Under the pieces are notes generated by a model that ran no database searches, was not told where the DNA came from, and saw only the letters and a list, made by a program, of their open reading frames with translations. Both the position numbers and the translations under genes were made by a program. Shown piece after piece: positions 1,613 to 28,443 of a stretch of 34,172 nt of DNA. How positions within the stretch are numbered: position 1 is the first letter of the stretch; every line of letters begins with the position of its first letter. This DNA comes from Pseudomonas sp. GM78 (GTDB lineage Bacteria; Pseudomonadota; Gammaproteobacteria; Pseudomonadales; Pseudomonadaceae). The DNA lies in contig NZ_AKJF01000029.1 of assembly GCF_000282475.1 (NCBI RefSeq), positions 1-34,172 of the forward strand, written 5' to 3'.

Positions 1613-1681
1613 AGTATAGGGACGGGATTTATATTCGTTAAGGAATAAGAAGCTATTTATTAAGACCTATATCGAATATAA
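1613..1681 (-). promoter_or_regulatory. Promoter region of the hydrolase unit with shared sulfur-locus motifs
   Basis: In the gene's direction there is TTAACG, 17 nt, then TATACT (TATACT is the complement of 1613-1618). This is a plausible sigma-70 promoter with a weak -35. Just upstream lies CTTATTCC (complement of GGAATAAG, 1642-1649), then ATAGGTCTTAA with a flanking ATATTCG (1660-1681). Outer arms TTATATTCG and CGAATATAA form an inverted repeat. Related sequences occur before atsK, atsR and tonB. Binding by CysB or an SftR-type LysR regulator is inference. Confidence 0.5.
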
Positions 1682-1691
1682 GACCAGAGAT

Positions 1692-1728
1692 AAAAAAAGG
1701 GGCCGCACCCTGCCAAGGAGACGGCCCC
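1692..1728 (-). terminator. Rho-independent terminator of tonB-exbB-exbD
   Basis: Reading the minus strand after exbD, a GGGGCCG arm (1722-1728 on the plus strand reads CGGCCCC) pairs with CGGCCCC and is followed directly by seven T residues. It begins about 20 bp past the exbD stop. Confidence 0.85.
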
Positions 1729-1746
1729 GGAAAACTTGAAACGCTG

Positions 1747-2148
1747 TCAGCGCGCGGTGATCACCGACAACTTCGTAATCCCTGCCCGCTCGATCGACGC
1801 CATGGCTCGAGCCACTTCGCCGTAATTCACCCCGTCATCGGCCTGCAATTGCACCCGTACTTCAGGGTCTTTGGCCTTGGCTGCCTGGAGCTTGAACTCC
1901 AGCAAATCAGGCTGGATTTCATCCTTGTTGATAAACAACTTGCCCGCCCCGTCGATGCTAACCACCAGCGGGTCCTTCTGCTCCACCGGCGCCACGGCCT
2001 CGGTCTTGGGCAGGTTGATCGGGATGGCGTTGGTCAGCAGCGGCGCGGTGACGATGAACACCACCAGCAGCACCAGCATCACGTCCACCAGCGGTGTCAC
2101 GTTGATCTCGCTCAGCACCTCATCGCTGTCTTGCGTGGAGAAGGCCAT
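1747..2148 (-). CDS. exbD: Biopolymer transport protein ExbD
   Basis: The product has 133 aa, normal for ExbD. A short cytoplasmic N-terminus (SEINVTPLVD) leads into a single membrane helix, and the conserved proton-pathway aspartate is Asp22 in PLVDVMLVLL. The remaining ~90 residues form the periplasmic domain. The ATG lies 1 bp after the exbB stop and has an AAGGAGG site inside the exbB end, so the two are translationally linked. With ExbB it converts proton motive force into movement of TonB. A strong terminator follows. In this context it probably powers the neighbouring outer-membrane receptor. Confidence 0.95.
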   Translation of the reverse strand: MAFSTQDSDEVLSEINVTPLVDVMLVLLVVFIVTAPLLTNAIPINLPKTEAVAPVEQKDPLVVSIDGAGKLFINKDEIQPDLLEFKLQAAKAKDPEVRVQLQADDGVNYGEVARAMASIERAGITKLSVITAR

Positions 2149-2149
2149 A

Positions 2150-2875
2150 TCAGGACGCCTCCTTCACTTTTTGTGCGTTAGCCGGCGCCGCAACCTTGTG
2201 CGCCGTCGGGTGGATCAACACGCGGAACGCACTCTTCTGCGCCAGGCTGTAGAAGTCGTGGGCGAAGTCGTCCAGGTCCGCCGCCGTCAACTTCAAGCGA
2301 CGCAAAAAGTAGTTGTAGACCAGCACTGCCGGCACCGCGACGGCGATCCCCACACCGGTGGCAACCAACGCTGCACCGATGGGTCCGGCGACTGTTTCCA
2401 GGCTCGCCGAGCCCGCTGCGCTGATGCCCTTCAACGCCTCCATGATTCCCCACACCGTGCCGAACAAACCAATGAACGGCGACGTGCTACCGATACTCGC
2501 AACCACCGCCAGCCCGGTTTCCAGCGACCGGCGCTCGCGCACGATCTGCTGACGCAGGGCCCGCTCGAGACGATCCTGATGATTGATCGCCTGGCTCAAA
2601 TCCGTCGCCTGTGGCGCCTCGCCCACCTGAATCGCCGCATAACCGGCCTGTGCCACCCGCGCCGCGGCGCCTGGTTGGGATTCGGCTAACTCTGCGGCCG
2701 AATCCAGGCTCGACGCGGCCCAGAAGCGCTGATGAAATTTTCGGTCCTGGGCTTTCAGGCGACCGAACTGCACGCCCTTGAGCAACGCCAGGCCCCAGGT
2801 GGCAACGGAAAAAACCACCAGCAGCCAGATCACCGCGCTTTCGATGGATTGGAGTGGAGATGCCAATAACGTCAT
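2150..2875 (-). CDS. exbB: MotA/TolQ/ExbB proton channel family protein ExbB
   Basis: The product has 241 aa. One membrane segment lies near residues 14-35 and two more in the C-terminal half (about 122-145 and 165-190). The conserved stretch GLFGTVWGIMEALKGI and the following GPIGAALVATGVGIAVAVPAV are diagnostic of ExbB/TolQ. It acts in the inner membrane as the multimeric scaffold and proton channel with ExbD and TonB. It sits 44 bp after tonB and 1 bp before exbD in one leftward operon. The product has a single internal Met and no Cys. TolQ is the only realistic alternative, but the tonB and exbD neighbours settle it. Confidence 0.95.
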   Translation of the reverse strand: MTLLASPLQSIESAVIWLLVVFSVATWGLALLKGVQFGRLKAQDRKFHQRFWAASSLDSAAELAESQPGAAARVAQAGYAAIQVGEAPQATDLSQAINHQDRLERALRQQIVRERRSLETGLAVVASIGSTSPFIGLFGTVWGIMEALKGISAAGSASLETVAGPIGAALVATGVGIAVAVPAVLVYNYFLRRLKLTAADLDDFAHDFYSLAQKSAFRVLIHPTAHKVAAPANAQKVKEAS

Positions 2876-2919
2876 GGTGAATTCCTCGTGTAAACGTTTC
2901 GCGCTAAAAAGGTGTCGGT

Positions 2920-3732
2920 TTAATGAATCTTGAAATCGATGGGCACGCTGACCCAGCCGTCCCGGGCCACATCACCCTGCTTGGCGGGCACGAAACTCCA
3001 GCGTTTCACGGCGCTCAGGGCCGCCTCATCGAGGGCCTCGCGGCCGCTGCTTTTTTGAATCTGGATCTCCCCGGGCTTGCCGCTGGCCAGCACATGCACA
3101 CGCAACAACACCGTGCCTTCCCAACCGCGACGCTGGGCCAGCGACGGGTATTCCGGCGCCGGGTTTTTCAAATACCCGGCGCTGGCCGAGGCGGGTGTCA
3201 CCGGGGCCGGCGCGGGCGGTGCAGGTGGCGCCGGGGCCGCGACCGGAGCAGCCGGTTGTGGCGGCGCGGGCGGTTGCGGGGCTGCTTTTGGTGCAGGTTT
3301 AGGCACCGGTTTAACGATCGGTTTTGGCTTGGGAATCGGTTTTGGCGGTGCCAGCTTGGCTGCCAATTCGTCCACCACGGGCGGCGGTGGCTCGACCACG
3401 GGTGGCGGCGGCGGTGGAGGTGGCGGCGGTTCGACCACTGGCGGTGCCGGACGTGAAAACTCGATGGTCATCGGCGGAATTTCCGGCGGCACGACTGGCA
3501 ATTCTTTGGTCGGCTGTTGATTGAGCCAGTAGATCACCGCGCCGTGCACCAGCAACGCCAGCACACCGAGCAGTATCGCTTCGCGTCGGCTCAGGATGCC
3601 CTTGGGCGCACGCTGCAAACGCAGCTGGCCCAAGGGCACGCGGTGCACCCTCCCGAAGTCGACCAACTCGCCACCTGGCGCCTGGCACCAAAGCACCTCG
3701 TGTGCGCCGGCGGCGGTCTGGACATTGCCCAT
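2920..3732 (-). CDS. tonB: TonB energy transducer (TonB2-like)
   Basis: The start is taken at 3732, where an AGGGAG site stands 7 nt before ATG (270 aa); an ATG at 3786 is possible but has a poorly placed site. An N-terminal cytoplasmic part of about 60 residues precedes one membrane helix (ILLGVLALLVHGAVIYWL). A long Pro/Lys-Pro linker that spans the periplasm follows, then the C-terminal TonB domain (EYPSLAQRRGWEGTVLLRV to VPIDFKIH). The extended cytoplasmic N-terminus differs from E. coli TonB and resembles what I recall of TonB2 of P. aeruginosa. The order tonB-exbB-exbD and the adjacent receptor suggest a dedicated energiser for sulfate-ester uptake. Confidence 0.93.
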   Translation of the reverse strand: MGNVQTAAGAHEVLWCQAPGGELVDFGRVHRVPLGQLRLQRAPKGILSRREAILLGVLALLVHGAVIYWLNQQPTKELPVVPPEIPPMTIEFSRPAPPVVEPPPPPPPPPPVVEPPPPVVDELAAKLAPPKPIPKPKPIVKPVPKPAPKAAPQPPAPPQPAAPVAAPAPPAPPAPAPVTPASASAGYLKNPAPEYPSLAQRRGWEGTVLLRVHVLASGKPGEIQIQKSSGREALDEAALSAVKRWSFVPAKQGDVARDGWVSVPIDFKIH

Positions 3733-3859
3733 TGCTTTACTCCCTGCGGTCTCTTTGCGAATTACCCGATACGTCGAACCCGACATCCCCCGTACGACGT
3801 ATCGAGGAGTTAATCATTGGGTTAGACGCTTATCTCTGAAAGTAATCTTTAACGTTAAA

Positions 3860-3880
3860 ATTAGACCTAAAACGAATATG
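3860..3880 (-). promoter_or_regulatory. Shared motif TTAGRYCTAA upstream of tonB
   Basis: The plus strand reads TTAGACCTAA at 3861-3870 followed by AACGAATATG. In the gene's direction this is CATATTCGTT then TTAGGTCTAA. The same core with a flanking GAATAT occurs at the atsK promoter and in slightly altered form at the hydrolase promoter; the core alone is before atsR. It lies about 130 bp upstream of the chosen tonB start. It is a candidate operator; the regulator is not identified. Confidence 0.5.
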
Positions 3881-3934
3881 AAAAATGCCTGGTTCGCTGC
3901 AGGCCCTGTTCCATAAGGGCTGCGGCGAGGCAGC

Positions 3935-3958
3935 CAAAAACACATGCTTTTGAAGCAT
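3935..3958 (-). terminator. Possible weak terminator of the TonB-dependent receptor gene
   Basis: On the minus strand ATGCTT, CAA, AAGCAT forms a 6-bp stem (3944-3958) followed by GTG and five T residues (3936-3940). It is about 50 bp past the receptor stop. The stem is AT-rich and short. Confidence 0.4.
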
Positions 3959-4006
3959 TGAAAATATTCCCCTAGGGCATGGTTCTCGCCTCAGCCGCCG
4001 CATTCA

Positions 4007-6379
4007 TCAGAAGTCGTAACGACCGGTCACACCCAAGGTTCGCGGTGTCCCGAGCAAGCCTTCGTAACCGCCATTGGAAGCGGTCCAGAGGGTGGTGTAA
4101 TAGGTTTTGTCGAAAGCGTTTTTCAGCCACAGTGAGACGTCCCACTGCCCCTGCTTGAAGTCGCCGCGCAGGCCGGTGGACAAGTTGACGACGGCGTAGC
4201 TGGGGATCTGGCCGAAATCGGAATCTTCCACCGTGCCCACCGCTTTGGAGCGGAAGGCGTAGCTGGCGGTGACGTACTCTTCGAAGCCGTTACTCAGGTT
4301 CCATTTGTATTCGCCGTTGGCGTTGCCGATCCATTTCGAAGCGCCGACCACCTGATGGCCGCTGAGATCGCAAGAGGCCGGAGCACCCGGCGCCAGGCTG
4401 ACTTCCGGTGGGCACGGCGCATCTTTGTAGGAGAGGTAGCTGACGTCGTTGTAGGAGCCGTTGATGTTCAGCGTCAGGCCGCGTAACGGGATCAGCGTGC
4501 TGTCGAACTCCACGCCACGAGAGCGCACGGAACCGGCGTTGGTCAGGTATTGCACACGGTTGACGTCGTCGTAGGCGTTGGTTTGATAGCCGTTGACCTG
4601 GGTCCAGAACACGTTGGCGTTGAGTTGAAGGCGACGGTCCCAGAGCGTGCTTTTGAAACCGAGTTCGGCGTTGTTTGCGCGTTCGGTGCCGATCAGCAGC
4701 GAATCGGCACCAGCGACCGGGGCTGTGCCGACGGCCAGGTTGACCCCACCGGATTTCTCGCCATGGGACAGCGTGGCGTAGCCCAGCAGGTCATCGGTGA
4801 AGTGATAACTGAGGTTCAGCAAACCCGAAGGGCTGGAGCTGTATTGATTCAAATCACCGGAGTCGTAAGCCCCGGCGCGACCTTGTCTTACCGCCGATGC
4901 CGCCCCCGCCACCGCCGCACCACCCACTGGCGCGTCGCGGTTCACCCAGGCGCTTTTCTCTTCATAAGTGCCACGCACACCCGCGGTGAAGTCCAACCGC
5001 TCGGTGAGGTGCCAGGTGCCTTGGGCAAACAGGGCGAAGCTGTCGGTTTCGATGTGGCCCTTGCCGATGCTGGTGACGTTGGCCAGTGCGCTCGGGGGCG
5101 TGCCGTTCCAGATGTCCGCTTGCGGGCCGTAGAAGCTGAACGATTTGTTGTCCAGGTCGGAACCGAAGTAATAGGCGCCGAGCACGTAATCGAAGAAACC
5201 GCCGGTGGGCGACGCCAGGCGAAACTCCTGGGAATACTGCTTATCCTCCACCGAAACGCCAGCGTTGTAGAAGGCGGATACGTTCAGGCCGTCATCGTTG
5301 CGCGGGGTGAAGTTCCACCAGCGGTAGGCGCTGATGGACGTCAGGGTAAAGTCGTTCGGCAGCGTCCAGTTCGCCTCGACCGACGTTCCGCCCTGATGCA
5401 CGGTGACGTGTTGTTCGTTGTTAAGGTTGACCTTGCGATGCGTGCCATCGACCAGCGTGGCGCCCGCCGCATTGGCCCGGGCCTGGTACAGGTTGACGCC
5501 ATTGATGGTCGGCCCGGTGTTGTACAACACGCGGGTGCCGGCGCTGGAATCCTCTTCGTTGTAGTCGCCGATCCAGCGCAGATTGAACGCCTCATTGGGC
5601 TTGAACAGCAACTGGCCACGAAAGCCATCCCGTGAGCCGCCGTTCAAGTCATGGCCGTCGAATTCGTTCTTGATGTCGCCATCGCTGCGGGTGCGGTAAG
5701 CGGAAAATCGTCCCGCGAGTTCATCATTCAACGGGCCGGAAATGGTGCCCTTGGTCTGGAAGTAACCGTCCTCGCCCACCGAGGTTTCGATGCTGCGTTC
5801 CGGTGTGAATGAGGGCGCCCGCGTACTGATGTTGATCACGCCAGCCGTGGTGTTCTTGCCGAACAATGTGCCTTGGGGGCCGCGCAGCACTTCGAGTTGC
5901 TCGATGTCCATCAGGTCGAACACCGCCATGCCCGGCCGACCGAGGTAAACGTTGTCGAGGTACAACCCGACGCTGCCCTCCAGGCCATCGCTTGCCGGGT
6001 TGTTGCCCAAGCCACGGATCGACACGCTGGACTGGCGCGCATGCATGTAGGCGACGTTGACGCTGGGCACCAATTGCTGCAGATCCTGGATGCGATAGAC
6101 CCGCTGGGTTTCCAGGACCTGGCCACTGACCACGCTCATCGGGGTCGGTACATCCTGAGAACTCTCTTCACGACGGCGGGTGGTGACGGTCACTGTTTCC
6201 AGCTGAGCGCCATCGTCCTTGACCTGGCCCGACGCGGCTTTTGCCGGTGCCTCTTGGGCAGTGGTGGTCTCGGCCGCATAGCCTTGGGTCCAACTGGCGC
6301 TCCCCGCCAGCAGCAGGGCCAGGGGCAGGCGTTTGAGCCGTCGGGGTGTGAGGGGTGACGCAAGGTTCAACGGACTCAT
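4007..6379 (-). CDS. TonB-dependent outer-membrane receptor, probable sulfate-ester/organosulfur receptor
   Basis: The product has 790 aa from the ATG at 6379, which has AGGAG 7 nt upstream. A signal peptide ends near GYA/AE. It is followed by a TonB-box-like ETVTVTTRRRE, a plug domain (DVPTPMSVVSG, SVSIRGLGNNP, LEVLRGPQGTLFGKN) and a 22-strand-type beta barrel ending in the aromatic GRYDF. It resembles the iron-complex receptor family. It is divergent from a LysR regulator and embedded among ats genes and a tonB-exbBD operon, so organic sulfate esters are a likelier substrate than iron chelates. P. putida SftP is the known precedent for a receptor of this kind. The protein has only a few Met and Cys. 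The exact ligand is inference. Confidence 0.9.
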   Translation of the reverse strand: MSPLNLASPLTPRRLKRLPLALLLAGSASWTQGYAAETTTAQEAPAKAASGQVKDDGAQLETVTVTTRRREESSQDVPTPMSVVSGQVLETQRVYRIQDLQQLVPSVNVAYMHARQSSVSIRGLGNNPASDGLEGSVGLYLDNVYLGRPGMAVFDLMDIEQLEVLRGPQGTLFGKNTTAGVINISTRAPSFTPERSIETSVGEDGYFQTKGTISGPLNDELAGRFSAYRTRSDGDIKNEFDGHDLNGGSRDGFRGQLLFKPNEAFNLRWIGDYNEEDSSAGTRVLYNTGPTINGVNLYQARANAAGATLVDGTHRKVNLNNEQHVTVHQGGTSVEANWTLPNDFTLTSISAYRWWNFTPRNDDGLNVSAFYNAGVSVEDKQYSQEFRLASPTGGFFDYVLGAYYFGSDLDNKSFSFYGPQADIWNGTPPSALANVTSIGKGHIETDSFALFAQGTWHLTERLDFTAGVRGTYEEKSAWVNRDAPVGGAAVAGAASAVRQGRAGAYDSGDLNQYSSSPSGLLNLSYHFTDDLLGYATLSHGEKSGGVNLAVGTAPVAGADSLLIGTERANNAELGFKSTLWDRRLQLNANVFWTQVNGYQTNAYDDVNRVQYLTNAGSVRSRGVEFDSTLIPLRGLTLNINGSYNDVSYLSYKDAPCPPEVSLAPGAPASCDLSGHQVVGASKWIGNANGEYKWNLSNGFEEYVTASYAFRSKAVGTVEDSDFGQIPSYAVVNLSTGLRGDFKQGQWDVSLWLKNAFDKTYYTTLWTASNGGYEGLLGTPRTLGVTGRYDF

Positions 6380-6468
6380 CAAGCGGCTCCTGATCAAAAA
6401 ACACACAGCCACTTTTCAGCAGTGCATATTCTTTAAAGTTATTTATTTATGTTTTTACAAAGATTTAC

Positions 6469-6504
6469 TGCATAAGAGATTGCCTTTATAAGGAGTCGAC
6501 CTAA
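6469..6504. promoter_or_regulatory. Receptor/LysR divergent control region with shared motifs
   Basis: This part of the 166-bp divergent region carries TGCATAAGAGAT (6469-6480), whose complement CTCTTATGCA resembles the CTTATTCC and CTTATGCA elements before atsK, the hydrolase and atsR. It also carries GTCGACCTAA (6495-6504), an imperfect match to TTAGACCTAA that overlaps the leader ribosome site. An ATGCAT, 5 nt, ATGCAT repeat follows at 6504-6520. Regulatory function is inferred. Confidence 0.4.
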
Positions 6505-6542
6505 TGCATATCCAATGCATTTCCCCGATATTTTTAATGTGA
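6504..6542 (+). CDS. Putative 12-codon leader peptide upstream of the first LysR regulator
   Basis: A perfect AAGGAG (6490-6495) stands 8 nt before an ATG that opens a 12-residue reading frame, MHIQCISPIFLM, ending in TGA at 6540-6542. The LysR ATG follows after 3 nt and in the same frame, and the LysR start has no good ribosome site of its own. This arrangement suggests translational coupling. The peptide includes one Cys and an internal Met, which could make it sensitive to charged tRNA-Cys or tRNA-Met supply; that is speculation. Alternatively the ribosome site is a chance match, or the in-frame TGA is a sequence difference that separates an N-terminal extension. Confidence 0.4.
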   Translation: MHIQCISPIFLM

Positions 6543-6545
6543 AAA

Positions 6546-7490
6546 ATGCATATCGACTTGCGCCAGCTTCGCCACTTCATCGCCCTCGCCGACCAGCGCA
6601 GCTTCGTCGCGGGCGCCATGGCCGTGAACCTGTCGCAGTCGGCGTTCAGCCGTAGCATCCAGGCGCTGGAACACAGCGTCGGCTGTCAGTTGGTGGATCG
6701 CGGGCGCAAGGACCTGGCGCCGACCAAGCAGGGCCAGGTGTTGCTCGAACACGCGCGGCGGCTGGTCAGCGGCGCGCAGCAGATGGCCAACGAGATCAGC
6801 CAGTTCAACGGCCTGGAGGCCGGCGAATTGCGCTTCGGTTGCGGCCCGGCGCCAGCGGCGGGTTTGATCCCTCGGGCGATCGGCAGCTTTATTGGTCGCT
6901 ACCCCAAGGCGCGGGTGCAATTTCAAGTGGATGACTGGCAAAGCCTGAGCAAACGCCTGCTGAGCGAAGAGTTCGAATTTTTCGTCGCCGACACCCGGCA
7001 GTTCGAGGCCGACCCGGACTACCTGACCCAACGCCTGCGCCCGCGCAAATGGCATTTCTGCTGCCGCGCCGGGCATCCACTGGCCGCTCGCGAAAGCGTC
7101 AGCGCCGCCGAGTTGATGAGCTATCCGATGGCCGTCACCATTCGCCCGCCCAACCTGCGCAAAGTCATCGTCGACCTGAGCGGCCGGCCGGATTTCGCAC
7201 CCAATGTGGAGTGCGAAAACAGCTACAGCCTGCTCGGTGTGGTGCTGCGTTCGGATGCGATTGGCATCATCGGCGAGTATTCAGATGCACTGCATAATGC
7301 CAAGGGTGAGTTGGTGCGCTTGAAGATCGATGGACTGGCCGATGACCTGGAAGAGCTGTACACCCGCTACGGGATTGTCAGTCGCGCGGGGTATCGGTTG
7401 TCGCCGTTGGCCGAGGCGATGATTGCGCAGATCAAGGAGGTTGATGCTCAGGATGAAGAGGTGTGTTCGCTGGAGAACTTCGCTGTCTGA
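6546..7490 (+). CDS. LysR-family regulator, SftR-like paralogue 1
   Basis: The product has 314 aa, the usual LysR length. The N-terminal winged HTH is typical (IDLRQLRHFIALADQRSFVAGAMAVNLSQSAFSRSIQALE), followed by a LysR substrate domain. The ATG at 6546 gives the canonical N-terminus. It is divergent from the TonB-dependent receptor and co-directional with the downstream sulfatase. It is clearly paralogous to the second LysR protein of the window: both share RFGCGPAPA, the SFSRS-type HTH and CGIVSR/YGIVSR near the end. SftR of P. putida controls sulfate-ester genes; which of the two paralogues is the true SftR counterpart cannot be decided here. The effector is probably a sulfate ester or a sulfur metabolite (inference). 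Confidence 0.88.
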   Translation: MHIDLRQLRHFIALADQRSFVAGAMAVNLSQSAFSRSIQALEHSVGCQLVDRGRKDLAPTKQGQVLLEHARRLVSGAQQMANEISQFNGLEAGELRFGCGPAPAAGLIPRAIGSFIGRYPKARVQFQVDDWQSLSKRLLSEEFEFFVADTRQFEADPDYLTQRLRPRKWHFCCRAGHPLAARESVSAAELMSYPMAVTIRPPNLRKVIVDLSGRPDFAPNVECENSYSLLGVVLRSDAIGIIGEYSDALHNAKGELVRLKIDGLADDLEELYTRYGIVSRAGYRLSPLAEAMIAQIKEVDAQDEEVCSLENFAV

Positions 7491-7491
7491 C

Positions 7492-7595
7492 CGGGCCTCA
7501 TCGCTGGCAAGCCAGCTCCCACAGGGATCGATGGTGTTCACAAATCATGTATCAAACAAACCTTGTGGGAGCTGGCTTGCCAGCGATGAGGCCCG
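7492..7595. repeat. REPIN (paired REP), GCTGGC class
   Basis: Two inverted arms of about 32 nt match perfectly: one begins CGGGCCTCATCGCTGGC (7492) and its complement ends at 7595. They are separated by about 37 nt. The core GCTGGCTTGCCAGC with flanking CTCCCACAGG is typical of P. fluorescens-group REPs. It fills the gap between the LysR gene and the sulfatase gene. Confidence 0.9.
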
Positions 7596-7703
7596 ATCAG
7601 GCGGCGATGCACCTCCTGCATAAAAACCATTCCCCAAACGCACTTGCCTCAACCCCGCCCCAGCAGCGAAAAACCTCGCCTGTCTTTTCGATCGGTGAAC
7701 CCC

Positions 7704-9320
7704 ATGCCCAACACCCAAAACCCGGTGCGCAACGTGCTGTACATCATGTGCGACCAACTGCGCCGCGATTACCTGTCGTGCTACGGCCACCCGCACTTGC
7801 ACACCCCCAACATCGATCGCCTGGCCGCCGCTGGCGTGCGTTTCAGCCGGGCCTATACCCAGGGCACAATCTGCGGCCCATCGCGGATGTCGGCCTACAC
7901 CGGGCGCTATGTCAGCAGTCATCAAGTCGCCTGGAACGCCGTGCCCTTGCCGCTGGAAGAGCTGACTATCGGTGACTACCTGCGCCCCCACGGTATTCGC
8001 ACCGCACTGGTGGGCAAGACCCACGCCACGCCTAATCTCGATGCGTTGCAGCGGCTGGCCATCGACCCTGGCAGCGCGCAGGCCGAGCACCTGAACGAAG
8101 TCGGATTCGAGCCGTACTTGCGCCATGACGGCATCTTCCCCGACGACCCGCTATTCGATGACAAACGCGAATCCGCGCCCTACACCCACTACCTGCGCGA
8201 CCTCGGTTATGCCGGGCGCAACCCGTGGCACGACTGGGCCAACGCTGCCGAAGGCGCACAGGGCGAAATCCTCAGCGGCTGGAAAATGCGCAACGCCCAT
8301 CTGCCGGCGCGCGTTCCCGAGCAGCATTCGGAAACCGTCTACACCACTGACCGCGCCCTCGACTTCATCGCCGAGCAGGGCGAGCAGCCCTGGTGCCTGC
8401 ACCTGTCGTACATCAAGCCCCACTGGCCCTATATCGCCCCGGCGCCGTATCACGCGCTGTATGGCCCGGAACAGGTGATCGAGCCGGTGCGTGCAGCCGA
8501 GGGCGAGGCCAGTGATCACCCGGTGTACAACGCGTTCCGTCAGCACGAGGAGAGCCTGAATTTTTCCCGGGACGAAGTACGCCTGAACGTGATCCCGACG
8601 TACATGGGCCTTATCAAACAGGTCGATGACCAGCTCGGGCGGTTGTTCGATTTCCTGCAGAGCAGCGGTCGCTGGGATGACACCCTGATCGTGTTTACCA
8701 GCGACCATGGCGACTTCCTTGGCGATCACTACCTGGGGGAAAAAGAGTTCCTGCTGGAGCCGGCGGTGGGGGTTCCGCTGATCGTTCGCGACCCGCGTCC
8801 GGAGGCAGATGCAACGCGCGGTTCGGTGGATGAACGACTGGTGGAAACCATCGATGCGCTGCCGACTTTCCTTGAGGCACTAGGATTGCAGGGGGCCGAG
8901 CATCGACTTGAAGGACGCTCGCTGATTCCCCTGCTGCACGGAGTAAAAACTGACTGGCGCCGATTCGCGATCAGTGAATACGACTACGCCTTCCAGGCGC
9001 CTGCGCGGGAACGCTTGCATCAACCGATCGACCGCTGCCGCATGACCATGGTGCGCAGCGAGCGCTGGAAGTACCTGGCGTACGACGGCTTTCGACCGCA
9101 GCTGTTCGACCTGTTGAAGGATCCGCAGGAGCTAAGGGACCTGGGTGCTGACCCGGCGTATGCCTCGGTTCGGGAAGAGCATGCGGGGTATTTGTTTGAG
9201 TGGGTGAGAGGGTTGAAGCGGCGGACGACGATCAGCCATGAGGAGATTGATTTGCGCGGGCAGCGGTTTCGCTACGGAGAGCCGGAAACCGAGAAAATGG
9301 TGCAGATCGGCGTGTGGTAG
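7704..9320 (+). CDS. Sulfatase, phosphonate monoester hydrolase/arylsulfatase-like
   Basis: The product has 538 aa from the ATG at 7704; the ribosome site there is weak, but the start gives the normal sulfatase N-terminus RNVLYIMCDQLRRDYL. The formylglycine signature is C57-GPSR followed by TGR, so Cys57 would be oxidised by a maturase. Metal ligands are likely in MCDQ (Asp17) and in the FTSDHGDFLGDH segment. The segment HLSYIKPHWPYIAPAPYHALY is very like phosphonate monoester hydrolases (PMH), which are promiscuous on sulfate and phosphate esters. There is no signal peptide, so it is cytoplasmic. It follows a LysR gene across a REPIN and probably releases sulfate from an imported ester. The precise substrate is unknown, and choline-sulfatase-like use is an alternative. 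Confidence 0.9.
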   Translation: MPNTQNPVRNVLYIMCDQLRRDYLSCYGHPHLHTPNIDRLAAAGVRFSRAYTQGTICGPSRMSAYTGRYVSSHQVAWNAVPLPLEELTIGDYLRPHGIRTALVGKTHATPNLDALQRLAIDPGSAQAEHLNEVGFEPYLRHDGIFPDDPLFDDKRESAPYTHYLRDLGYAGRNPWHDWANAAEGAQGEILSGWKMRNAHLPARVPEQHSETVYTTDRALDFIAEQGEQPWCLHLSYIKPHWPYIAPAPYHALYGPEQVIEPVRAAEGEASDHPVYNAFRQHEESLNFSRDEVRLNVIPTYMGLIKQVDDQLGRLFDFLQSSGRWDDTLIVFTSDHGDFLGDHYLGEKEFLLEPAVGVPLIVRDPRPEADATRGSVDERLVETIDALPTFLEALGLQGAEHRLEGRSLIPLLHGVKTDWRRFAISEYDYAFQAPARERLHQPIDRCRMTMVRSERWKYLAYDGFRPQLFDLLKDPQELRDLGADPAYASVREEHAGYLFEWVRGLKRRTTISHEEIDLRGQRFRYGEPETEKMVQIGVW

Positions 9321-9326
9321 AAAAAG

Positions 9327-9410
9327 CATCGCTGGCAAGCCAGCTCCCACAGGGTTTCGTGTCGTTCACATCCATTGTGGTCAACACCATTCACTGTGGG
9401 AGCTGGCTTG
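9327..9410. repeat. REPIN, GCTGGC class, right arm degenerate
   Basis: The left arm CATCGCTGGCAAGCCAGC...CACAGG (9327-9353) pairs with CTGTGGGAGCTGGCTTG (9394-9410). After that the right arm diverges. It lies between the convergent sulfatase and atsK genes. Confidence 0.85.
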
Positions 9411-9442
9411 TCGGGTCGCCGCATCGCAGCGATTACTTCAGA

Positions 9443-10363
9443 TCAAACGCCGCCGATATCCGGCCCCTTCACCGTCTGACTACGCTGCCCCGCCACACCC
9501 ACCGGCACCTCGCCCTTGAGCGTCACGCGCCGCACCACGCGGTCCTGGGTGCCATAGTCATCCACCGCGTAATGCTGGGTGGAGCGGTTATCCCAGATCG
9601 CCACATCACCAGCCTGCCAGCGCCAGCGCACAATGTTTTCCTGGCGGACGACGTGGCTCTGCAACAGGTTGAACAGGTGCGCCGAATCACCCTGGGAGTA
9701 ACCCTTGATGCGCTTGACGAAATGCCCCAGCAGCAAGCTTTTCTCGCCGCTGATGGGGTGTACGCGCACCACCGGGTGCTCGGTCTCGTAGATGGTCGAG
9801 GTGAAGATCTTGCGGTAGCGCTCCAGCTTTTCCTCCGACACGTCAGGCTTGGCGCCCGCGTAGTCGTACTCGTTGCTGTGCACCGCCACCAGTTTATCCG
9901 CCAGTTCGCGCAGCTCCGGCGTCAGTTCGTTGTAGGCCGTGGCGGTGTTGGCCCACAGGGTGTCGCCACCAAAAGCGGGCGCAACCACCGAGCGCAGGAT
10001 CGAGGCTTTCGGGTAGGCGTCGACGAAGGTCACGTCGGTGTGCCAGGAGTTGGCGCGCTGGCCTTGGGCACCGTCCAGCTCCAGCAGAAAACGGGTGCCG
10101 TCACGCACCGGCACGGTCGGGTGCGCCACGGGTTCGCCCAGCAGATGGGCGAAGGCTTCCTGGCTCTGATCGTCGAGGTGGGCCTGCTCGCGAAAGAAGA
10201 TCACCTTGTACTGCACCAGCGCCTGCTGGATCGCCTCGACGGTGTTGGCATCCAGTTCACCGGAGAGCTTCACGCCCCGGATCTCGGCACCGATCCGACC
10301 GGCCACCGGATGGATTTCAAGCGCGTGGACAGCGGGTTTTACAGCTAAAGCGGCATTGCTCAT
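9443..10363 (-). CDS. atsK: AtsK, Fe(II)/2-oxoglutarate-dependent alkylsulfatase
   Basis: The product has 306 aa from the ATG at 10363 (GAGGGT upstream); an ATG at 10429 lacks support. AtsK oxidises alkyl sulfate esters with 2-oxoglutarate and O2, giving aldehyde, succinate, CO2 and sulfate. With this start the TauD-family residues fall exactly where known for P. putida AtsK: His108 and Asp110 (WHTD), His264 (TQH) as iron ligands, and Thr135, Arg275 and Arg279 in the 2-oxoglutarate site. TauD (taurine dioxygenase) is the alternative, but the context and the segment WHTDVTFVDAYPKASILRS favour AtsK. The protein has no Met or Cys beyond the initiator, in keeping with synthesis under sulfur starvation. 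It is divergent from the second LysR gene. Confidence 0.95.
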   Translation of the reverse strand: MSNAALAVKPAVHALEIHPVAGRIGAEIRGVKLSGELDANTVEAIQQALVQYKVIFFREQAHLDDQSQEAFAHLLGEPVAHPTVPVRDGTRFLLELDGAQGQRANSWHTDVTFVDAYPKASILRSVVAPAFGGDTLWANTATAYNELTPELRELADKLVAVHSNEYDYAGAKPDVSEEKLERYRKIFTSTIYETEHPVVRVHPISGEKSLLLGHFVKRIKGYSQGDSAHLFNLLQSHVVRQENIVRWRWQAGDVAIWDNRSTQHYAVDDYGTQDRVVRRVTLKGEVPVGVAGQRSQTVKGPDIGGV

Positions 10364-10418
10364 GGGTAGACCCTCGATCGGACTGCTGACGGTTGAGCGA
10401 CAGCGAAACAACGCTCTA

Positions 10419-10475
10419 TCTATATTCAATTTAGGTCTAATAGATATTCGTATGCTTCGTTGACGGAATAAGAGC
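10419..10475. promoter_or_regulatory. atsK/LysR divergent promoter with shared motifs
   Basis: The plus strand has ATATTC, AATT, TTAGGTCTAA and then AGATATTC (10422-10449), and GGAATAAGAGC at 10465-10475. In the atsK direction a TATAGA -10 candidate (complement of 10419-10424) lies just downstream of the TTAGACCTAA core, so a protein bound at the core would block RNA polymerase. The CTTATTCC element is further upstream, as expected for an activator. SftR-type repression plus CysB activation is the inferred reading. Confidence 0.5.
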
Positions 10476-10546
10476 TTGCATTTAAAACCTCAACCAACCC
10501 TCGTCGCAAATGCCTTCGAGCTATTTTTAGGATGCCGGGAAAGCAT

Positions 10547-11467
10547 ATGGATCTTCGCCAGTTGCGCTACTTCATCGCCCTCAACGAACACCGCAGTTTC
10601 GTCCGTGCGGCGGACGCCATGGGCATCACTCAACCGGCGTTCAGCCGCAGTATCCAAGGGCTTGAGCAAGAGTTCGGCTGCGTGCTGGTAGACCGTGGCA
10701 ACAAGGATTTGCGCCCGACCCCCGAAGGCCTGGTGGTGTTGCAACATGCGCGCAGTCTGGTGCAAGGCGCGGCCCTGCTCAGCGCCGAAGTGACGCAGAT
10801 GACCAAGCTCGACGCCGGTGAGCTGCGCTTCGGTTGCGGCCCTGCCCCGGCGGTGAAACTGGTGCCGGATGCGGTCGCGCAATTTATCAACGCGCACCCG
10901 AAAGTGCGCACCTGTTTCGAAGTGGATAACTGGGAAAAACTCAGCCGCGCGCTAAGCCGCGAAGAGATCGAATTCTTCATCGCCGACATCCGCCATTTCG
11001 AAGCCGACCCGAACTTCCAGACCCAGGCCCTGACCCCCAGGCGCGGCGTGTTTTTCTGCCGTCCCGGGCATCCGTTGCTGGCCAAGGAAAGCCTGTCGAC
11101 CAACGACATGTTCGACTACCCGCTGGCAACCACGCTGATTCCGCCGGGCATCCGCAAACTGCTGGCGAACCTCAGTGGGCGCATGGACTTTTCCCCGACT
11201 ATCGAGACCGAGCATTTCCCGGCGCTGGTGAAAATCGTGCTGCAATCGAATGCGATTGGCGTGGGGACGCAAGAGGCCTTTGTCGAAGACATCGCCCAGG
11301 GTTCGCTGGTGTTACTGCACTGGCGCAATCTGCCGCAGAACATCGAGAGCATGAATGCCCGCTGCGGGATTGTCAGTCGCACAGGGTTCAGGTTGTCGCC
11401 GGCGGCGCGGGCGATGATCGAGATATTGGTGGCGGTGGACAAGCAGGAGATTGCTGTCGCGGTTTAG
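10547..11467 (+). CDS. LysR-family regulator, SftR-like paralogue 2
   Basis: The product has 306 aa from the ATG at 10547, which has GGGA upstream and gives the typical MDLRQLRYFIALNEHRSFVR start; an ATG at 10532 is less well placed. A winged HTH (residues ~1-60) precedes a LysR effector-binding domain with FGCGPAPAVKLVPDAV. It is paralogous to the LysR protein at 6546. It is divergent from atsK and lies beside atsR, the position expected of SftR, the repressor of sulfate-ester genes in P. putida; the symbol is not assigned because of the second paralogue. It is probably autoregulated from the shared 183-bp region. Confidence 0.88.
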   Translation: MDLRQLRYFIALNEHRSFVRAADAMGITQPAFSRSIQGLEQEFGCVLVDRGNKDLRPTPEGLVVLQHARSLVQGAALLSAEVTQMTKLDAGELRFGCGPAPAVKLVPDAVAQFINAHPKVRTCFEVDNWEKLSRALSREEIEFFIADIRHFEADPNFQTQALTPRRGVFFCRPGHPLLAKESLSTNDMFDYPLATTLIPPGIRKLLANLSGRMDFSPTIETEHFPALVKIVLQSNAIGVGTQEAFVEDIAQGSLVLLHWRNLPQNIESMNARCGIVSRTGFRLSPAARAMIEILVAVDKQEIAVAV

Positions 11468-11571
11468 GGCCCCATCGCTGGCAAGCCAGCTCCCACAGGT
11501 TTTTCTGGTGCTCACAAAATGCATGTGCACTGGAGATCCCTGTGGGAGCTGGCTTGCCAGCGAAGAGGCCC
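11468..11571. repeat. REPIN, GCTGGC class
   Basis: The left arm starts GGGCCCCATCGCTGGC right after the LysR stop, and the right arm ends CCAGCGAAGAGGCCC at 11571. The core is as in the REPIN at 7492-7595. It lies between the convergent LysR and atsR genes. Confidence 0.88.
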
Positions 11572-11588
11572 GCAAGAGCGCTAGAGAT

Positions 11589-12602
11589 TTAGAGTTTTGC
11601 CGCAGCCAACTCCGGCACCACCCAATCACTCACCTTGAACGACTTGCGAATCAGCTTCTGCTGCGAAGCCAGGTCCACGGCATCCTGCAATTTACCCAGG
11701 AACACCGGGTCCAGGGTCGAGGGGAACACCTCGCTCAGGTTCTGGTCCTTCAAATCCTCGGTCAGAATCACCGACGGATAACTCGCAAGCCCGGACACCA
11801 ACTGAATGTACGCTTGCTTGTTGCTGTCCTGGGTCAGCCATTGCACCGCCTGCTGTTGGGCCTTGAGCAGTTTCGCCACCACCTGCGGGTGCTCGTCGAC
11901 AAACTTGCCATTGGCCACCAATACCGCCTGAACACTGCCCGCGCCACCCAGGTCCTTGGTGTTCAACGGCAACTCGGCCAGGCCTTTGGCTTGCAACGCC
12001 GTCAAATTGGAACCGCCCCACGACGCATCGATCTGCCTGGCGGCGAGCGCGGCCACTGCAGCGTTGAAATCCAGGTTGATGACTTTCAGGTCCTTCTCGC
12101 TCAAACCCTGGCTGGCCAGCGCTGCATCAAACGACAACTGGCTGGCAGTGCCGCGAAAAATCGCCACGCGTTTGCCCTTGAGGTCCTGCAGGGTCTTGAT
12201 CCCCGAGCCCGGCACTACGCCCAGGTAATGCTTCACCCCGCGCGCCGAGGCACTCAGCACCCGCGTATCCAGGCCATTGGACTTGCCGATGATCGCCGCC
12301 AGGTCACCGAGGTATGCCAGATCGACTTGATCGTTGGCAAAGGCTTCGTTGATCACGGGACCTGCGCCCTTGAAGAAATTCCACTGAATCTTGATGCCCT
12401 GGTCGGCAAAGGCCTTTTCGTAAATCTGTTGATCGCGCAACACGTCCACCACGCCGCCTGCGCTGTGTTGCGTGCCGGCGCTGAGGTCGGGCACGGCGAT
12501 GCGGATTTCCTTGAGTTCAGCGGCCTGGGCGGTGAACGCCAGCAAGCCCGCCAGAGCCGGTATGGCGAGCAGGCTGAAGACACGTTTGAAGGGGATGCTC
12601 AT
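11589..12602 (-). CDS. atsR: AtsR, sulfate-ester ABC transporter substrate-binding protein
   Basis: The product has 337 aa from the ATG at 12602 with AGGAG upstream. A signal peptide (KRVFSLLAIPALAGLLAFTAQA) is followed by a mature periplasmic binding protein of the SsuA/TauA/NrtA type (IRIAVPDLSAG, DLAYLGDLAAIIGKSNG, DLKGKRVAIFRGTASQL). It binds sulfate esters and delivers them to AtsBC. The whole product contains no Met or Cys apart from the initiator. The gene is divergent from atsBC and separated from them by 314 bp, whereas P. putida S-313 is described as having an atsRBC operon. Sulfonate (SsuA-like) specificity is the alternative; the AtsA/AtsK neighbours favour esters. Confidence 0.9.
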   Translation of the reverse strand: MSIPFKRVFSLLAIPALAGLLAFTAQAAELKEIRIAVPDLSAGTQHSAGGVVDVLRDQQIYEKAFADQGIKIQWNFFKGAGPVINEAFANDQVDLAYLGDLAAIIGKSNGLDTRVLSASARGVKHYLGVVPGSGIKTLQDLKGKRVAIFRGTASQLSFDAALASQGLSEKDLKVINLDFNAAVAALAARQIDASWGGSNLTALQAKGLAELPLNTKDLGGAGSVQAVLVANGKFVDEHPQVVAKLLKAQQQAVQWLTQDSNKQAYIQLVSGLASYPSVILTEDLKDQNLSEVFPSTLDPVFLGKLQDAVDLASQQKLIRKSFKVSDWVVPELAAAKL

Positions 12603-12916
12603 GGGTACGGCTCCTGGTGACGACGGCGTTGAGGAGCAGAAAGTAGGCTCAATCTTGATCAGCACTTAAATACTATAAATTCACATTTTTATATCGTTTA
12701 GACCTAAGCAAGCAACGACGGGGCTCGTGGAGCGATATGCATAAGCAGCATCAAAAATATTCTTCGAATGCATTGGATGCGTTTTGGCTGGAGGCCTTAA
12801 ATGGTCTGGCTTATCTCCCAATAGTATTGATTTGATTTTTTATAGAACTATTTTGCATACACCCCGCTCCCACAAAAGGCAGGCCGTATTGCAACCCGAC
12901 AACGGAGGTCTCGCCC
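12603..12916. promoter_or_regulatory. atsR/atsB divergent control region (314 bp)
   Basis: No gene is seen here. In the atsR direction there is a TATAGT -10 candidate (complement of 12672-12677), with TTAGGTCTAA (complement of 12698-12707) overlapping its -35, and CTTATGCA further upstream (complement of 12738-12745). AATGCATTGGATGC at 12767-12780 shares 12 nt with the complement of 6509-6520 before the first LysR gene. For atsB, TTGATT (12827-12832), 16 nt, TATTTT (12849-12854) is a possible promoter. The region is strikingly AT-rich compared with its neighbours. Confidence 0.5.
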
Positions 12917-16952: not shown

Positions 16953-16970
16953 GGTTGTCTGAAAGATCGC

Positions 16971-17068
16971 TATCGCTGGCAAGCCAGCTCCCACAGTGAT
17001 TGTGCTGAATGAAAATTTTGCATTCAACGCAGAAACCTGTGGGAGCGGGCTTGCCCGCGATGAGGCCA
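16971..17068. repeat. REPIN with two different arm types
   Basis: The left arm is ATCGCTGGCAAGCCAGC with CTCCCACAG (16971-16996). The right arm is CTGTGGGAGCGGGCTTGCCCGCGATGAGG (17036-17064), that is, the GCGGGC class. The pair lies between the convergent atsA and desaturase genes and touches the desaturase stop. Confidence 0.85.
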
Positions 17069-26354: not shown

Positions 26355-26436
26355 GGTGCTGCTCCTTCGACTGAGAGATTGCCTGGCAGTGGCGGCACTG
26401 CTTGCGGCGTGAGACCAATAGTAGAGAGGCGCGGAT

Positions 26437-26461
26437 ATTCTTAAAAAGACTATTTAAGAAT
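26437..26461 (-). promoter_or_regulatory. Inverted repeat upstream of oscA, candidate CysB site
   Basis: ATTCTTAAA (26437-26445), a 7-nt spacer, TTTAAGAAT (26453-26461): a perfect 9-bp inverted repeat in an AT-rich patch about 83-107 bp before the oscA start. Size and position suit a LysR-type activator such as CysB. The ATTC-TTAA half resembles the ATTCCTTAA seen at the hydrolase promoter. Confidence 0.55.
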
Positions 26462-26511: not shown

Positions 26512-28443
26512 TCAAGCGATTACCGGAGCACGTGACCAATCCAATTGCCCAGCCGGCACCGGCCGCCCAAACCAGTAACCCTGCCCCAGGTGACTACCGT
26601 GTTCGAGCAGGAACGCCGCCTGCTCGACCTGCTCGATGCCTTCGGCTTGCACCTGCATGCCCATGCTCTGCGCCAGGGCGATGATTACCCGCACGATGGC
26701 CGCGTCGTCATCGTCCAACGGCAACCCGGCGACAAAGCCCTGGTCGATCTTGAGTTTCTGTACCGGGAGGCGCTTGAGCCGCAACAGCGACGAATAACCG
26801 GTGCCGAAATCATCAATGGCCAACTGCACACCCAACTCCCGTAGCCGGTGCATTTGCTCGAGCGCGACCTCTGGATCTTCCATCACCGCGCTCTCGGTGA
26901 CTTCCAGCTCCAGGCAGATTGGGTCCAGGCCGGTTTCGCGCAGCACCTGCGCAACCTGTTGGTAGAGCTCACGGCCGGCGAACAAACGCGATGACACATT
27001 CACCGCGACAAACGACAACGCCACGCCCGCCTGCTGCCATTGGCACATCTGCTCACAGGCCTGGCGCATCACCCAGGCGTCGATCTGGGCGATCAGCCCG
27101 GTTCGCTCGGCAACCGGAATGAATTGCGCAGGTGACACCATGCCGCGCTGCGGATGCTCCCAGCGCACCAGCGCCTCGACGCCGACCAGGCGACGGGTCT
27201 TGAGATCGTGAACCGGCTGGTAAAACACCCGTAGCTCGTCCTGCTCAAGCGCCCTGCGCAGCTCAGAGGCGGTCTCGACCCGCTGCTGGGCATGGGCGGT
27301 CAATTCTTCGGTGTACAGGGCATAGCCATTGCGCCCGGCGCTCTTGGCCTTGAACAGTGCCGAATCGGCGTTACGCAACAACTGCTCGGCACTCAATGCA
27401 TCACTGGGGAACTGGCTGATACCGATACTGGCGTTGATGAACAGCCGATGCCCCTGAATGTCGAAAGGCTCCTTGAGGCCCTCGATGATCCGCTGGGCCA
27501 GCGCCGCGGCCTGCATCAGTTGCGGACAGCTTTCGGCCAGCACGGCGAACTCATCGCCCCCCAGGCGCGCCAGGGTGACCCCAGGGTCGAACATGGCACG
27601 CAAGCGCTCGGCCACCGCCTTGAGCAATTGGTCACCCATCGAGTGCCCGAGGCTGTCGTTGATCATCACGAAGTGATCCAGATCGATCATCAGCAAGGCA
27701 CAGCCACGCTTGTGGATCTGCGCCGATGCCAGGGCTTGCGTGGCGCGGTCGGTGAACAGTAGTCGATTGGGCAGGCCGGTGAGCGGATCGTGATGAGCCA
27801 GGTGCCTCAATTCATGTTCAGAGTCCTTGATCGCGCTGATGTCGGAAAACACCGCCACGAATTGACTGCAACGCCCCTGGTCGTCGTGGATGATGCGGAT
27901 GGTTTGCCATTGCGGGTAGATTTCGCCGCTTTTGCGCCGGTTCCAGATTTCCCCGCTCCACTCGCCGACGCTGTTGAGCGTGGCGAACATCGCCTGGTAG
28001 AACGCGGGTGGATGATGCCCCGACTTGAACAGGCTGGGCTGACGTCCCAGCACTTCTTCACGCTGATAGCCGGTGATCTCCATGAAGGCGCGGTTCACAT
28101 GCACGATCCGCCCTTGGTGATCGGTGACCAACACCCCTTCACGGGTGCAATCGAACACGGCGGCGGCCTGGCGCAGACGCTCGCGGTCTTCGCTTCGTGC
28201 ACGCCATTTCGCGCCGACGCCCAGGCAACGCAACAGTCGACTCCGTACAATGAAGATCACGCCCGCGCTCAGCACCACCCAGGCATAACCGTTGATCAGT
28301 TGCCAGCGTAAGCGCTCGGCCGAGTTATCGAATAAACTGCTCAATAAATAGCCACTGAGCAGCATCCAGGCCACGGAAATCAGCAGGTAAAGCAGCGCTG
28401 CACGCATGGCATCGCGATAGCTGGCAGACATAAGGCTGTCCAT
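26512..28443 (-). CDS. Membrane PAS-GGDEF-EAL protein (PA0285/PipA-like phosphodiesterase)
   Basis: The product has 643 aa. Two N-terminal membrane helices (about 14-36 and 52-68) are followed by a PAS domain (~95-205), GGDEF (~215-375, GGDEF at 295-299) and EAL (~395-635). The EAL catalytic residues look intact: EAL 423-425, the DDFGTGYSSL loop 544-553, Lys565 and the EGIE glutamate at 601. The GGDEF motif is intact but the RxxD product-inhibition site is missing. It therefore probably degrades c-di-GMP, with GGDEF as an active or GTP-sensing partner. Position between oscA and desA matches PA0285 of P. aeruginosa. The ATG at 28443 has a poorly spaced AGGGA; the ATG at 28431 is an alternative. 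Confidence 0.92.
   Translation of the reverse strand: MDSLMSASYRDAMRAALLYLLISVAWMLLSGYLLSSLFDNSAERLRWQLINGYAWVVLSAGVIFIVRSRLLRCLGVGAKWRARSEDRERLRQAAAVFDCTREGVLVTDHQGRIVHVNRAFMEITGYQREEVLGRQPSLFKSGHHPPAFYQAMFATLNSVGEWSGEIWNRRKSGEIYPQWQTIRIIHDDQGRCSQFVAVFSDISAIKDSEHELRHLAHHDPLTGLPNRLLFTDRATQALASAQIHKRGCALLMIDLDHFVMINDSLGHSMGDQLLKAVAERLRAMFDPGVTLARLGGDEFAVLAESCPQLMQAAALAQRIIEGLKEPFDIQGHRLFINASIGISQFPSDALSAEQLLRNADSALFKAKSAGRNGYALYTEELTAHAQQRVETASELRRALEQDELRVFYQPVHDLKTRRLVGVEALVRWEHPQRGMVSPAQFIPVAERTGLIAQIDAWVMRQACEQMCQWQQAGVALSFVAVNVSSRLFAGRELYQQVAQVLRETGLDPICLELEVTESAVMEDPEVALEQMHRLRELGVQLAIDDFGTGYSSLLRLKRLPVQKLKIDQGFVAGLPLDDDDAAIVRVIIALAQSMGMQVQAEGIEQVEQAAFLLEHGSHLGQGYWFGRPVPAGQLDWSRAPVIA

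Follow-up and report, generated by a model that had tools for sequence, protein, structure and literature searches.

The 34,172-nucleotide (nt) stretch of Pseudomonas sp. GM78 analysed here (contig NZ_AKJF01000029.1, positions 1 to 34,172; hereafter the window) contains an ats-sft cluster of sulfate-ester genes, in which three short DNA elements, here termed motif A, box C and motif B, recur before the transcription units and may represent two layers of control. The window carries, in order, a sigma-54 activator gene, an RBBP9-type serine hydrolase gene (PF06821; 994-1575, minus strand), exbD, exbB and tonB (2920-3786, minus strand, first gene of a tonB-exbB-exbD unit running to 1747), a gene for a TonB-dependent receptor (sftP by position), lysR1 (6546-7490, plus strand), a sulfatase gene, atsK (TauD family), lysR2 (10547-11467, plus strand), atsR, atsBC and a second sulfatase gene. 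The LysR-family gene lysR2 adjoins atsK inside the cluster and is taken as sftR because the order atsACBR-sftR-atsK-sftP, named for Pseudomonas sp. UW4 in the part of that report available (PMC3596284), places sftR there, an assignment made from gene order. The second LysR protein, LysR1, has 51-53% identity to SftR in cross-hits, and the two share 44 of 70 N-terminal residues and an identical recognition helix, AFSRSIQ. The comparisons were built on 80 orthologous loci of lysR2, and a survey of 248 genomes of the family found SftR in 64 (expectation value, E, <=1e-130) and the hydrolase in 213 (E<=1e-60).

Motif B, missed by the preliminary description of this DNA, is a 37-bp element consisting of two LysR-type T-N11-A boxes in tandem, 22 bp apart, with the consensus ATGCNTT-N6-ATATTTT-N2-ATG-N6-ANGCAT; in the aligned blocks near sftR, lysR1, atsR/atsB and tonB, the ATGC at one end, the ATG 22 bp further on and the GC.T at the other end are invariant. 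It is found upstream of tonB (3944-3980, minus strand; E 1.0e-5), overlapping the start codon of lysR1 at 6546 (6515-6551, plus strand; E 5.1e-6), abutting the start codon of sftR at 10547 (10510-10546, plus strand; E 1.3e-6) and between atsR and atsBC (12737-12773, minus strand; E 6.0e-7). At lysR1 and sftR the tandem T-N11-A dyads adjoin a regulator gene, as in a LysR-type operator. A degenerate copy at 7607-7643 (minus strand; position weight matrix, PWM, score 19.0), which precedes the first of the two sulfatase genes (about 7704-9320), lies above the shuffle threshold in 59 of 62 loci and is absent from the motif B profile matches at E<=0.5. The profiles used (R1-R3) were trained on orthologues, and matches within the window of the GM78 genome are therefore expected. 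Scored with held-out PWMs, against sequences shuffled in two-base blocks, motif B was recovered in the orthologous promoters of tonB (57/58), lysR1 (61/62), sftR (79/80) and atsR/atsBC (71/71), and in none of the 27 hydrolase promoters or the control promoters (sulf2, desaturase, araC, exbB and exbD). For both motif B and motif A the training sites were chosen with a seed from all promoters, and the hold-out applies to the matrix, not to the seed. Throughout 1.57 Mb of loci, 281 of the 289 motif B matches scoring at least 25 were assigned to these genes, the remaining eight being left unassigned by the script. A further profile match in the GM78 genome (C69) was discarded, the PWM showing no motif B there.

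The distribution of motif B follows that of SftR. When 41 genomes (20 SftR-plus, 20 SftR-minus and G155) were scanned with the profile at E<=1e-3, under the stricter filters that apply to sets of more than 40 genomes, motif B was present in 19/20 SftR-plus and 0/20 SftR-minus genomes, and was thus found only where SftR or a paralogue occurs. As to the absence of SftR, 19 of the first 20 minus genomes lack any SftR-like protein at E<=1e-70, the other being G155, with one such protein of 52% identity, while 40 later genomes were screened only at E<=1e-150, a threshold that would miss SftR below about 75% identity and that applies to 40 of the 50 hydrolase regions compared below and to 12 of the 20 SftR-minus genomes in the motif scans. 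Divergent genomes contributed another 17 stretches for inspection, comprising every match at E<=0.0015 that adjoins neither sftR nor tonB, plus one at E 0.009. In 16 of them motif B precedes tonB (5), atsR/atsB (8), an sftP-type receptor gene (2) or a sulfatase gene (1); the last, L315, has an additional site near the end of its contig, downstream of atsK, that could not be assigned to a gene. Even where these genes are scattered in distant genomes, motif B stands before them, and in four loci without ats genes it is kept at sftR in three (not in L080) and at tonB in all three scored. On these sequence comparisons, motif B is the better candidate for an operator specific to the sulfate-ester genes.

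The protein bound to motif B could be LysR1, or both LysR proteins, and not SftR alone, a plausible reading that we nevertheless consider on balance doubtful. It would agree with the identical recognition helix and the shared N-terminal residues, as well as with the overlap of motif B and the lysR1 start; furthermore, the only SftR-like protein of G155 (E<=1e-70) is nearer to LysR1, and a weak motif B-like site (E 0.5) lies at the start of its gene. Against this, among 12 loci that have no lysR1 between atsK and sftP (the only place considered), motif B is retained at 12/12 sftR, 10/10 ats and 11/12 tonB promoters scored, L023 being the exception at tonB, while a thirteenth locus (L032) ends before that place.

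The tonB gene shows a similar association. It occurs in 12 of 13 SftR-plus genomes besides that of GM78 and in 6 of 20 SftR-minus genomes, five of the latter matches being a 75-79% copy on a contig different from that of the hydrolase, and the sixth, in G155, being on the same contig. Since tonB both co-occurs with SftR and carries motif B, tonB-exbBD is tied to SftR and would join its regulon. Of the preliminary proposal that both tonB-exbBD and the hydrolase belong to a sulfate-ester regulon, the first half is thereby upheld, through motif B, and the hydrolase drops out: it shows no sign of motif B, and the element that it does carry, motif A, persists there in genomes without detected SftR, for which reasons it was rejected as an SftR target.

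The preliminary description had centred on a palindromic 10-mer, TTAGACCTAA, flanked by GAATAT/ATATTC and placed before four transcription units (hydrolase, tonB, sftR/atsK and atsR). Exact copies indeed stand at 3861-3870, 10431-10440 and 12698-12707, the only three in the 7.29 Mb genome, and cores with two mismatches at 1661-1670 (hydrolase) and 6495-6504 (GTCGACCTAA); the flanks are present at 1674-1679, 3874-3879 and 10422-10427, with none alongside the atsR core. The bare 10-mer is nonetheless only mildly enriched, as the 13 window matches with at most two mismatches (shuffled mean 6.1) are reached by 3 of 100 shuffles, a result favouring chance or a general AT-rich promoter sequence as the origin of the repeats. 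It is also rare in orthologous promoters (tonB 0/58, hydrolase 0/27, atsK 8/76, lysR2 side 9/80, atsR 1/73), which rules out the palindrome as the conserved unit. Loss of the core, named beforehand as a sign against the motif, thus affects the 10-mer and not the longer, asymmetric motif A, ATATTC-N2-T-N3-GRTCTWA, which emerges when the orthologous promoters are aligned. Its three strong sites are in the hydrolase promoter (ATATTCGATATAGGTCTTAA, 1660-1679, minus strand; PWM 27.0), upstream of tonB-exbB-exbD (3860-3879, minus strand; PWM 27.6) and between atsK and sftR (10422-10441, plus strand; PWM 28.8). With PWMs built from two of these promoters and the third scored above the 99% level of shuffled sequence, motif A was recovered in 25/27, 37/58 and 79/80 loci, respectively, compared to 0-3 matches in each of six control promoter sets. 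That the leave-one-promoter-out PWMs of both motifs hold against shuffled and control promoters, and that column-shuffled motif B matrices yield 0 matches in each of five trials versus 72 for the real matrix in the same 20 loci, makes an origin by chance or base composition hardly credible.

Redrawn in this way, motif A holds at three of the four units, the atsR site at 12698 being neither conserved nor a member of the motif (PWM 7.9 versus 27.0-28.8 at the strong sites). Likewise, the 6495 site proposed before lysR1 gives way to a weaker copy between sftP and lysR1 at 6426-6445 (plus strand; PWM 17.1), the position of which is constant within 1 nt across 62/62 loci, in a region where motif A lies above the shuffle threshold in 31-61/62 loci. 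At atsK, motif A overlaps a -10 candidate read by eye (TTAGAC, 17 nt after TCAACG), a pair not among the matches of the promoter scan; of the units discussed, only the hydrolase gave a promoter in these scans, in addition to one plus-strand match in the atsK/sftR gap. Further along the window, a weak motif A (PWM 12.5) was seen at 26435-26454, before a PAS-GGDEF-EAL gene (26512-28443, minus strand).

The hydrolase promoter, carrying motif A and box C only, allows motif A to be compared between genomes with and without SftR. Upstream regions were read from 20 SftR-minus and 20 SftR-plus genomes and then from 40 and 20 more, the final sets comprising 50 SftR-minus regions (the 40 later ones, plus the first half of the earlier 20; the second half, mostly from more distant genomes, was excluded) and 47 SftR-plus regions (20 new ones and 27 lysR2 loci; 42 distinct sequences; 20 distant regions excluded). 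Kinship between genomes being ignored in all tests, the WTATTC half is kept in 41/50 SftR-minus versus 34/47 SftR-plus regions (p 0.33), and in rows with an intact TTAACGAATAT in 29/31 versus 33/46 (p 0.02). The flank beyond motif A shows no comparable conservation in these 50 and 47 regions. The RTCTT half behaves differently, being kept in 25/50 SftR-minus versus 42/47 SftR-plus regions (p 2.5e-5), and in rows with an intact TTAACGAATAT in 21/31 versus 41/46 (p 0.037), so that some effect of SftR on motif A is possible. This bears on the preliminary proposal of motif A as the SftR operator and the mark of a sulfate-ester regulon including the hydrolase, with which further observations agree: its positions at sftR/atsK, tonB and the hydrolase, its readable copies upstream of lysR2 in four loci without ats genes (degenerate in L080), and the 75-79% tonB paralogue of five SftR-minus genomes, where no clear motif A could be read. 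However, motif A is not restricted to genomes in which SftR occurs; it is kept at the hydrolase, and before lsfA-ssu and msu genes, where no SftR was detected, while distant SftR-plus genomes often lack the ATATTC half at the hydrolase. Motif A is therefore probably not the SftR operator, and we regard that assignment as improbable; the repeated motif is a genuine control element, which had been misdrawn and given to the wrong regulator. In three loci of SftR-minus relatives, L273 and L261 (G217) and L275 (G574), the hydrolase and desaturase genes have no cluster between them but retain a motif A-bearing stretch, which in L273 is similar to the tonB promoter and looks like the remnant of a deletion.

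Box C, YTTAAAT-N8-CTTATYYC, is the second box common to the window promoters. At the hydrolase (1633-1664, minus strand) it is near-invariant in the 50 SftR-minus and 47 SftR-plus regions and overlaps a promoter-like TTAACG-17-TATACT (1641-1613); other copies belong to sftP (6460-6491, minus strand; profile E 0.013), atsK (10456-10487, minus strand; the best R1 profile match in the genome, E 2.5e-5) and the atsBC-sulfatase unit (12795-12826, plus strand; PWM 22.9, with a weak profile E of 2.5). In the GM78 genome the box C profile ranks three window units first (E<=0.013), followed by C101 (0.67), msuEDC (C57; 2.3), atsBC (2.5) and C75 (7.9), the matches at C101 and C75 being unexplained or taken as chance. 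The motif A profile places its three window sites at the top, with lsfA-ssuEADCBF next (E 0.63), followed by the gene of a SLAC1-family transporter (E 1.1); msuEDC likewise carries motif A (PWM 17.6), and a pattern match with two mismatches stands before a TauD-type operon. The transporter gene, of the SLAC1/TDT family and possibly encoding a sulfite exporter, has its motif A about 35 bp upstream (L176:2853-2872, C201). An XRE-cupin regulator gene (C142) is preceded by two motif A-like sites (L178:3834-3910; PWM 22.6 and 15.6), likewise left unexplained or taken as chance.

In 20 SftR-minus genomes, 46 motif A matches (E<=2) were found in 19 genomes, and 30 of these were fetched. Fourteen were placed at the hydrolase by their coordinates; of the 16 whose genes were read, one more is at the hydrolase, two fall between the hydrolase and desaturase genes and 13 precede lsfA-ssu (11), ssuE (1) or msuE (1), four of the 13 (L259, L267, L277 and L281) belonging to genomes screened for SftR down to E 1e-70. 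As motif A and/or box C thus precede ssu and msu operons, weakly so at msu in the GM78 genome, and do so also where SftR is not detected, they are best read as a candidate general sulfate-starvation operator, the most likely binder of which would be CysB. For P. aeruginosa, one paper lists CysB as a putative regulator of msu and sfn (PMC12581299), and another states that proteobacteria lack a distinct CysB motif (PMC3773388). A different sulfur regulator, such as an organosulfur-specific LysR protein, could also bind motif A/box C, the sulfur-gene sites being located at organosulfur units (ssu, msu, ats and the TauD-type operon) with no listed match at a classical cys gene. The role ascribed to CysB at msu and sfn speaks against this, no candidate for such a regulator was found, and we consider it rather unlikely.

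Where motif B and box C occur together, they do so in a nearly constant geometry. They lie on opposite strands with a gap of 21-23 bp at sftR/atsK (79/79), lysR1/sftP (61/61) and atsB (55/56), and at atsB 17 of 64 further matches beyond the distance limits of the script also show 21-22 bp. The strong ATGC-N7-GCAT dyad of motif B, which is located upstream of box C at the atsK, sftP and atsBC promoters, points away from these promoters, leaving the weaker box on the promoter side. A strong distal box combined with a weaker promoter-side box is the usual arrangement of LysR recognition and activation sites.

From the sequence, position, spacing, conservation and co-occurrence of the elements, all of which were observed directly, we infer which proteins bind, which ligands they sense and whether they activate or repress, as follows. 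The cluster is probably controlled by two LysR-type layers. The first, a starvation layer, would act through motif A and/or box C at the hydrolase, sftP, atsK, atsBC (box C alone), lsfA-ssuEADCBF and msuEDC, and through motif A alone at tonB, and would most likely employ CysB to signal low sulfate. The second would act through motif B, with SftR as its most likely binder and the paralogue LysR1 as a probable additional one, and would signal the presence of sulfate esters. At sftR and lysR1 motif B abuts or overlaps the start codon, and its position would therefore suit autorepression.

Besides the better conservation of RTCTT in SftR-plus regions noted above, several observations weigh against this two-layer scheme. 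For the SftR layer, 12 of the 20 SftR-minus genomes were screened at E<=1e-150 only, six of the 20 give faint or incomplete matches to motif B (E 0.005-0.27, the best of them being partial), and the SftR-plus genome G203 gives only a partial one (E 0.027); motif B abuts sftR in 14/20 SftR-plus genomes and is found beside tonB instead in five, and at tonB it is reversed in orientation and has no scoring box C partner (57/57). For the starvation layer, motif A is also above the shuffle threshold in 23-24/71 atsB and 10-15/73 atsR promoters, and the box C at msuEDC is weak and outranked by the unrelated-looking C101 match. Also, the genome scans, which bear on this indirectly, list no classical cys or tauABCD promoter among the profile matches at E<=10, where a simple CysB operator might perhaps be expected to give them.

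More tentatively, SftR and CysB may sit side by side at a near-fixed phase (21-23 bp, about two helical turns) as a joint switch requiring both low sulfate and a sulfate ester, with a TonB-ExbB-ExbD energiser of its own recruited for SftP, an arrangement that three genera would have retained despite the scattering of the genes in some genomes. This is a speculative extension of the two-layer scheme, and its truth is possible rather than probable.

Compared to known systems, lysR2 occupies the place of sftR, in the order named for UW4, of the SftR regulon of P. putida S-313 (Kahnert et al. 2002) as far as the accessible sources describe it; to that regulon the present proposal adds a sequence for the operator, membership of tonB-exbBD, a further LysR gene and a fixed distance to the starvation box. 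A potential SftR operator has been reported for Pectobacterium versatile, as data not shown and, in the part of that report available, only in the atsR-atsBCA gap (PMC7843439). It fits motif B at atsR/atsB by its location and was published without sequence; it is described as a single operator in the genome, whereas GM78 has four clear copies and one degenerate copy. Like the tandem T-N11-A operators of LysR proteins, motif B has two boxes 22 bp apart, a stronger far dyad and a position beside the regulator gene; it differs from generic LysR operators in its ATGC-N7-GCAT sequence and in the near-constant 21-23 bp gap to the starvation box. Motif A and/or box C, in turn, resemble CysB-dependent sulfate-starvation promoters in standing before lsfA-ssuEADCBF and msuEDC, both in GM78 and in relatives where SftR was not detected. 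In the literature covered, which leaves most subscription papers outside, no published CysB site consensus or SftR site sequence for Pseudomonas was found.

Elsewhere in the window, a single open frame at 28579-29763 matches a Pfam model for fatty acid desaturases as well as one for ISL3-type transposases, and may therefore be a fusion or a frame artefact. Intergenic inverted repeats of the type CTGGCAAGCCAGCTCCCACA, recognized by eye and resembling repetitive extragenic palindromic (REP) elements, are located at about 7500-7595 and at 16970-17066.

If the two layers are as proposed, a general starvation signal would be separated from a substrate-specific one in the sulfate-ester sulfur genes of soil pseudomonads, each signal being provided with a testable candidate operator. 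The inclusion of tonB-exbBD in the sulfate-ester regulon would, moreover, imply an energiser dedicated to a receptor whose cargo is probably not iron.

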